Below, one piece after another: positions 4,583 to 13,204 of a DNA stretch of 21,234 nt (its first letter is position 1; every line of letters starts with the position of its first letter). Position numbers and translations under genes: made by a program. The notes beneath the pieces were generated by a model. The model made no database searches, was not told the origin of the DNA, and worked only from the letters and a program-made list of their open reading frames with translations. Source of the DNA: a virus; the IMG/VR virus record IMGVR_UViG_3300020442_001297, positions 1-21,234 of that record, one strand, 5' to 3'.

Positions 4583-4616
4583 TATTTATAATAACACTTT
4601 GTTTAGATTCTGTCAA
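4583..4616 (-). promoter_or_regulatory. Composite sigma70 / T4-late promoter for the exported protein
   Basis: On the minus strand TTGACA (4616-4611), a 17-base spacer, then TATTATAAATA. The first six bases, TATTAT (4593-4588), are a near-consensus -10, and the last eight, TATAAATA (4590-4583), are the T4 late-promoter element. The TGA inside TTGACA is the stop codon of the upstream 51-residue gene. Host polymerase early and phage-modified polymerase late could both use it. Confidence 0.78.
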
Positions 4617-8503: not shown

Positions 8504-8537
8504 TATTTATAGTAATATAACTTCACAGATTTGTCAA
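8504..8537 (-). promoter_or_regulatory. Composite sigma70 / T4-late promoter for psbA
   Basis: Minus strand TTGACA (8537-8532), 17-base spacer, TACTAT (8514-8509) fused to TATAAATA (8511-8504). The -35 is perfect and the -10 matches 4 of 6; the late element is perfect. The same fused layout precedes the exported-protein gene at 4583-4616. It would allow psbA expression both by host-type sigma factor and by late-modified polymerase. Confidence 0.78.
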
Positions 8538-12290: not shown

Positions 12291-12956
12291 TCAGTTCTTC
12301 TTCAGACATTCCTGTAGTTCCTTCCAATCGTTGTCAAAGAGTTCTAATCCTTTATCTGTCAATAAATGCCTATACATCTTATGGAAGATTGTAATAGGAA
12401 TAGTACAGATGTCAGCACCCACTCTAAATGCAGAGGATACTTGATACACCTCTCTAATAGATGCTGCAAGGACTTGAGTATTAGTATTGTGTGTTGCAAA
12501 TACATCTGCAATCTCTTCAATGACTCCAATGCCATCAAAAGATTGATCAAATACTCTTCCCACAAATGGTGAAACATATGTTGCTCCTGCTTTGGCAGCT
12601 AGAATTGCCTGTGCTGTATCAAATACAAGAGTTACATTTACGTTGATCTCATCAGAAGACAAACGTTTACATGCTTTTAATCCTTCAAAGGTGCATGGAA
12701 CTTTGATTGTAATATTCGGTCCGATATCAATGTAATCTTCTGCCATCTGTAACATTTCTTCAGCAGTATCACCTACCACCTCAGCAGATACAGAAGAATT
12801 CCAAGGAAAGATTTGCGAGATCTCCTTGATTACATCACGAGGGTCATTACCTGCCTTCAACATAAGTGAAGGATTAGTAGTAACACCGTCGATTAACCCT
12901 GTGTCAAACGCTTGTAAGATTAACTCAGGATCAGAGCAGTCCAGAAAAATTTTCAT
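12291..12956 (-). CDS. talC: Transaldolase (TalC / fructose-6-phosphate aldolase type)
   Basis: 221 residues from the ATG at 12956 (GGAG 7 bases upstream); a longer frame to 13013 crosses the promoter and is rejected. Short TalC family barrel: MKIFLDCSDPE start, GVTTNPSL at 23-30, Schiff-base Lys85 in NITIKVP, NVTLVFD and YVSPFVGR for phosphate binding. It transfers the dihydroxyacetone unit in the pentose phosphate pathway; phage TalC is thought to push carbon to NADPH and ribose-5-phosphate for nucleotide synthesis. It has a dedicated promoter nested in the preceding terminator and heads a four-gene unit. Confidence 0.95.
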   Translation of the reverse strand: MKIFLDCSDPELILQAFDTGLIDGVTTNPSLMLKAGNDPRDVIKEISQIFPWNSSVSAEVVGDTAEEMLQMAEDYIDIGPNITIKVPCTFEGLKACKRLSSDEINVNVTLVFDTAQAILAAKAGATYVSPFVGRVFDQSFDGIGVIEEIADVFATHNTNTQVLAASIREVYQVSSAFRVGADICTIPITIFHKMYRHLLTDKGLELFDNDWKELQECLKKN

Positions 12957-12984
12957 GACTCTCCAGTTATAGTTAAGCTTATTT

Positions 12985-13013
12985 AGTATAACAAAAAAAC
13001 CCCCAGTCGTCAA
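12985..13013 (-). promoter_or_regulatory. talC promoter nested in a terminator
   Basis: Minus strand TTGACG (13013-13008, 5 of 6), 17-base spacer, TATACT (12990-12985, 5 of 6). The -35 begins in the loop of the terminator at 12991-13025; the descending arm and its seven U make up the spacer. Leader about 22 bases to the talC ATG. Confidence 0.7.
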
Positions 13014-13025
13014 AGACTAGGGGTT
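12991..13025 (-). terminator. Intrinsic terminator after the DUF4278 gene pair
   Basis: Eleven-base-pair stem with one G-U pair (arms 12998-13008 and 13015-13025, AACCCCTAGTC on the transcribed strand), 6-base loop, then seven T. Just 11 bases beyond the stop of the 55-residue gene. Confidence 0.9.
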
Positions 13026-13036
13026 ATGTGTTGATA

Positions 13037-13204
13037 CTAGGATTTTATCTTCCAGTGTTTACTGCCAAAGTGAATTTTTAAGTCAACCCACTTAGCATAG
13101 TGCACTCCACGATATGTCAAGAATGCAAATATTCTGTCAGGATCGTGTAAATCAGGATCAAATTCTGGAAGATTGTGATCCCAATCTAACCTGATCCTTA
13201 ACAT
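13037..13204 (-). CDS. 55-residue DUF4278-like protein
   Basis: ATG at 13204 with AGGAG 7 bases upstream. The second half has LTYRGVHYAKW, the YRGV-x-Y core of the small cyanobacterial DUF4278 family, preceded by an acidic His/Asp/Pro-rich N-terminus (DWDHNLPEFDPDLHDPD) that could bind a metal, though nothing proves it. Second of two tandem family members. Function of the family unknown. Confidence 0.68.
   Translation of the reverse strand: MLRIRLDWDHNLPEFDPDLHDPDRIFAFLTYRGVHYAKWVDLKIHFGSKHWKIKS

Follow-up and report, generated by a model that had tools for sequence, protein, structure and literature searches.

The region in front of talC in this viral sequence raises the question of how one transcription unit can be ended and the next one started within a few tens of bases. 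The window, by which we mean the whole stretch analyzed here, is a 21.2-kb fragment of a marine T4-like cyanomyovirus (IMG/VR record) that carries psbA, nrdA, nrdB, talC, a phoH-like gene and a thyX-like gene, the main genes all lying on the minus strand. The talC gene (12291-12956, minus strand; Pfam TAL_FSA, E = 4.6e-56) encodes a transaldolase of 221 aa and is a host-derived gene of sugar metabolism. Its ATG at 12956 is preceded by a Shine-Dalgarno-like GGAG (12961-12964, minus strand), and 80 bases separate it from the stop codon (TAG, 13039-13037) of a 55-aa ORF (13037-13204, minus strand), which had no match in a Pfam search and is probably the last gene upstream of a terminator hairpin that begins 11 nt farther on. 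A TTG at 13013 was considered as the start of the talC ORF and rejected, as the ATG at 12956 has the GGAG site and agrees with the relatives. We estimate at about 70% the probability that the 46 bases at 13025-12980 (minus strand) are a compact boundary element, in which a terminator, a host-type promoter and a late box are combined and which would have talC expressed from early-middle to late infection.

The hairpin (12998-13025, minus strand) has an 11-bp stem and a 6-nt loop, and a base-by-base check places the left arm AACCCCTAGTC at 13025-13015, the loop TTTGAC at 13014-13009, and the right arm GACTGGGGGTT at 13008-12998. Folded alone it gives -18.3 kcal/mol, the 71-nt stretch that contains it has a z value of -5.8 relative to shuffled sequences, and the G+C-rich stem is followed at once by a run of seven T (12993-12999, the first two paired in the stem), as in an intrinsic terminator. 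The first-pass annotation had described a -35 hexamer, TTGACG, beginning in the loop of this terminator, with TATACT 17 nt on, and both coordinates and arithmetic are correct to the base: the -35 occupies 13008-13013, the spacer ACTGGGGGTTTTTTTGT 13007-12991 and the -10 12985-12990 (all minus strand), with a TG at 12993-12992 that makes it an extended -10. Two details of that description need adjustment. Five bases of the -35 lie in the loop, the sixth already belonging to the right arm as its first base, and the spacer, said to be exactly the descending arm plus seven T, does have 17 nt and is made up of the rest of the right arm, the T-tract, and GT. TTGACG and TATACT together match at 10 of 12 positions, which is below consensus. 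Overlooked in the annotation was a T4-type late promoter box, ACTAAATA (12987-12980, minus strand), which is more strongly conserved than any other part of the region and overlaps the -10, its CTAAATA (12986-12980) being fused directly to TATACT. A possible outer helix between the -10 and the end of the upstream gene does not form consistently in relatives and was therefore discarded as a conserved feature.

Within the window, the hexamer pair at talC is not beyond what chance would give, as a scan of 2.5 kb found 8 promoter-like sites with 8.2 expected (and 5 terminators with 1.5 expected). We therefore collected talC loci of relatives from IMG/VR and from phage isolates, giving 95 distinct upstream sequences plus the window, 92 of them with a late-type box; since the searches returned the best 80 matches per query, distant talC genes are undersampled. 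The sequences were aligned on TAAATA, and the -35 was scored as a match to TTGACA of 5/6 or better. Such matches were present in 30 of the 92 distinct listed upstreams, at a spacing of 16 (5 sequences) or 17 (25 sequences), and there were none at spacings of 4 to 15 or 18 to 25. The match score was bimodal, with 29 sequences at 5 to 6 and 57 at 1 to 2. Clustering at 75% identity gave 16 groups, 7 of which had a correctly spaced -35 matching 5/6 or better, where about 0.014 to 0.018 would be expected per group; the corresponding P value of about 1e-9 to 6e-9 assumes independence, which the group count overstates because sequences of classes A and B, defined below, partly share ancestry. The spacing-specific -35 in these groups and the bimodal score argue that the host-type promoter is real in the lineages that have the -35, including that of the window. 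The conserved hexamers of the 7 groups fall within the 16 to 18 nt expected of a host sigma-70-type promoter; the -35 is absent from class C. As a -35 for class C we rejected a TTGATA that lies before the hairpin: the 5/6 matches there are at a spacing of 34, which is too far, and are part of the region around the upstream gene's stop codon.

The relatives fall into three arrangements. In class A (the window, L148, L157, L169, L176, L134-L143, L201-L205, L242, and L268), the hairpin has the -35 core in its loop. In class B (L118-L132 and L208-L215), a consensus promoter, TTGACA-17-GATAAT or TTGACC-17-TAAAAT, is separated from a terminator about 50 nt upstream, and class C, comprising the remaining and most numerous listed talC relatives, has a short AAAGSACCC hairpin and TGN-TANNNT without a -35. 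Common to nearly all of the listed relatives is TANNNTAAATA, about 21 to 24 nt before the talC start. Among 12 distinct class A hairpins with identical geometry, 99.2% of cells in the stem were paired and 21 double-sided changes were counted, compared with 7.7 after shuffling and zero to two in slid controls, while TT.AC, TTTT, TA, and TAAATA were invariant. With the stem covarying around fixed promoter letters, both the hairpin and the promoter letters have been kept, and this comparative evidence supports the earlier claim that termination of one unit and initiation at talC use the same bases. The variants in near relatives of the window read TTTACG, only 4/6 compared with TTGACA. Among laboratory phages, the class A element is present in S-TIM4 (as the TTTACG variant) and in P-RSM1 (with TTGACA). 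On the talC protein tree, class A turns up in four places and requires four changes, at least three of which are imposed by branches with good support; six changes are needed when all classes are counted, which indicates that the arrangement was altered several times; exchange and repeated origin both fit. Because classes B and C each keep one part without the other, terminator and promoter are separable parts whose overlap is fortuitous. The class of terminator can thus change while the promoter stays, and boundary signals can be packed very densely.

The late box itself shows the expected bias. We searched the 100 nt before the ORFs of four complete related genomes for [ACT]TAAATA; 157 genes have it in their own orientation and 15 in the opposite one, a 10-fold bias, and for CTAAATA alone the counts are 56 and 6. 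This fits the cyanophage late promoter of S-PM2 and Syn9, NATAAATA (PMC2984593), from which CTAAATA differs at the second position in having C instead of A. At talC, a TATAAATA-like box upstream of the gene, which is all that a late promoter needs in that no -35 is required, is kept in nearly all listed relatives, and the related S-SSM5 genome has annotated genes for the late sigma gp55 and for gp33. Terminators with a late box right behind them recur: in the four genomes, 17 of 175 terminators had one within 15 nt, with 4.3 expected, and the next distance bins held 3, 1, 0, 0, and 1. At several genes (in the genomes behind L037, L043, L050, and L057), the late box runs straight out of the terminator T-tract, as in GAGACCCCTTTTTTTATAAATA before an S-layer-like gene. 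At 7125-7087 of the window (minus strand), another late box, TAATCTAAATA, adjoins the upstream side of the terminator that follows psbA (7115-7094), and the T-run of that terminator finishes within the ATG that opens a 701-aa ORF; as a start at the usual distance would fall inside the left arm, the full hairpin could not form in the new RNA.

TATACT running into CTAAATA reads as a composite host-sigma and late promoter, and the combination is largely confined to particular genes. The sequence TGN-TA before TAAATA was found in 66 of the 92 listed talC upstreams compared with 7 of the 157 late boxes counted across the four genomes. talC itself accounts for four of these seven, and the other three are a single gene (98 aa, T4-GC 392), which heads a petE-PTOX-gnd-zwf cassette in S-SSM5 and has TTGACA-16-TANNNTAAATA at 33 of 33 distinct listed loci (L273-L315), the weakest -35 still matching 5/6. 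Composites occur at few other late boxes in these genomes (5 of 157, of which 3 are the petE-PTOX-gnd-zwf cassette). From the other direction, the four genomes have 121 host-type promoters ahead of ORFs, of which only five run into AAATA, three of them at T4-GC 392, and a second copy of the talC element was found at none of the 121; among terminator-abutting late boxes, only that of S-TIM4 talC has a -35-like hexamer at the right spacing. Of 49 psbA loci listed, 28 have a late box, and 23 of these 28 a composite; some of those lacking a late box are possibly not myoviral. The window has a sister composite, TTGACA-17-TACTATAAATA, upstream of psbA (8504-8537, minus strand), and TTGACA-17-TATTATAAATA (4583-4616, minus strand) lies upstream of an outer-membrane-protein-like gene (4436-4062; Pfam Phage_OMP). 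The T4-GC 392 promoter was near-invariant as a whole, TTGACA-16-(TGN)TACAATAAATA (L273-L315), and in P-HM1, where cp12 adjoins talC and precedes it, the cp12 leader contains TTGACATAAATA (L263, 1480-1530), a different promoter arrangement in which a -35-like hexamer overlaps the late box in another way.

The late sigma factor gp55 works with gp33 and the sliding clamp. We propose that the intrinsic terminator would end the unit of nrdA, nrdB, and the small ORF about 13 nt before a predicted talC start at 12978. The host holoenzyme would start talC in early to middle infection from a sigma-70-type promoter whose -35 lies in the loop of the terminator, for which the T-tract serves as spacer, and whose extended -10 is TGTTATACT. 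The late box CTAAATA, sharing its T with the -10, would then allow gp55 with its partners to keep talC on later from almost the same site, with predicted 5' ends near 12978 for the host form and within a few bases of 12978 for the late form. The assignment of each sigma factor to its part, the timing, and the transcript starts and ends are all predictions from sequence, while the anatomy, spacing, conservation, covariation, and separability of the parts, and the recurrence of the composite at other auxiliary metabolic genes, are computed results. Since class C has no -35, any use of the host sigma there would depend on the extended -10 by itself. The overlap most likely reflects economy and the exchange of ready-made cassettes, not control by the hairpin. 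In P-HM2, talC belongs to the middle class, as do psbA and the nrd genes, and is one of the most highly expressed genes (PMC5082946). Overlapping early and late promoters have been proposed for middle genes of S-PM2, Syn9, and RB49, and S-PM2 and Syn9 are without MotA and AsiA, the middle-promoter proteins of T4, which leaves the timing of cyanophage auxiliary metabolic genes unsettled (PMC2984593). A base-sharing composite at talC, psbA, and the gnd-zwf cassette offers a simple, testable answer, namely, one start site used by two forms of the polymerase. The bolder proposal, that cyanomyoviruses have a dedicated composite promoter for host-derived metabolic genes and that terminator nesting hands polymerase from the ribonucleotide-reductase operon to talC, we regard as quite unlikely; if it were true, a base-for-base host and late composite would keep such genes on from early to late infection.

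Could the TTGACG in the loop be incidental and CTAAATA, read by gp55, be the sole start signal behind the terminator? The prominence of the late box in the conservation, the class C relatives that lack a -35, the recurrent fusion of terminators and late boxes, and the poor match of TTTACG in the near relatives would all agree with this. The placement of the -35 specifically at 16 to 17 nt in 7 of 16 groups would not, and neither would the rarity of the TGN-TA signature at ordinary late boxes or the middle-gene status of talC in P-HM2, and we consider a late promoter alone fairly unlikely. That talC is instead transcribed by read-through from nrdA-nrdB, with neither promoter used, is highly improbable: talC does lie downstream on the same strand, and nrdA, nrdB, and talC share the middle class in P-HM2, but in most relatives a strong, covarying terminator is retained between them, with a promoter maintained immediately behind.

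The remaining alternative is a mechanical link between termination and initiation, in which a released polymerase slides a few bases and reinitiates on the same DNA or a hairpin formed in the DNA modulates the -35. Escherichia coli polymerase remains bound to DNA after intrinsic termination and reinitiates at nearby promoters after 37 to 55% of terminations in vitro (PMC6978380, PMC11347151), and at talC the release site and the predicted start are about 13 nt apart. However, such recycling requires proximity only, not overlap; class B separates the promoter from the terminator, and class C has the terminator without a -35. A literature search found no data on coupling of this kind in cyanophages or in vivo, and we judge the link to be very unlikely. 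The suggestion in the first-pass annotation that hairpin extrusion or polymerase pausing influences talC firing found no support, given that classes B and C part promoter from terminator, and hairpin control of the talC promoter is thus not supported.

Elements of a related kind in T4-type phages, termed PeSL, were reportedly treated by Arbiol in 2010. They are promoter early stem-loop elements, and a paper that cites this work notes that their density is low in cyanophage S-PM2 (PMC4503421). Compared with PeSLs as described in citing literature, the talC element likewise joins a stem-loop terminator and an early-type promoter at a gene boundary. Mobility of the PeSL kind is one reading of the changes that class A needs on the talC tree, repeated origin being the other. 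The two differ in that the -35 of talC is inside the loop whereas the PeSL promoter merely adjoins the stem-loop, in the late box fused to the -10, and in copy number: such elements are few per genome, while PeSLs are many repeats of one motif in shuffled regions. The overlapping early and late promoters of RB49, S-PM2, and Syn9 (PMC2984593) similarly place a host-type and a late promoter on one gene. At talC, however, the parts share bases (TANNNTAAATA), the terminator overlaps the promoter, and conservation of the composite has been measured across auxiliary metabolic genes. With the T4 and cyanophage late promoters (TATAAATA and NATAAATA), the element shares the TAAATA core, the strand bias upstream of genes, and gp55 in relatives, and it differs in its CTAAATA variant and the added host -10 and -35 signals. 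The talC element is best read as a compact cassette of terminator plus composite promoter, allied to PeSLs and to the published overlapping early and late promoters.

Two further observations were made at psbA. Right behind the composite in the window, at about the predicted start, lies a terminator-like hairpin, GGGTGAGGGATTCCTCACCTTTTTTG (8495-8476, minus strand), through which psbA could be attenuated or a short RNA produced. The psbA composites of relatives (L339-L388) have an additional common motif between the -35 and the -10, approximately GTAAAGTT or TTAACA, which is possibly an activator site.
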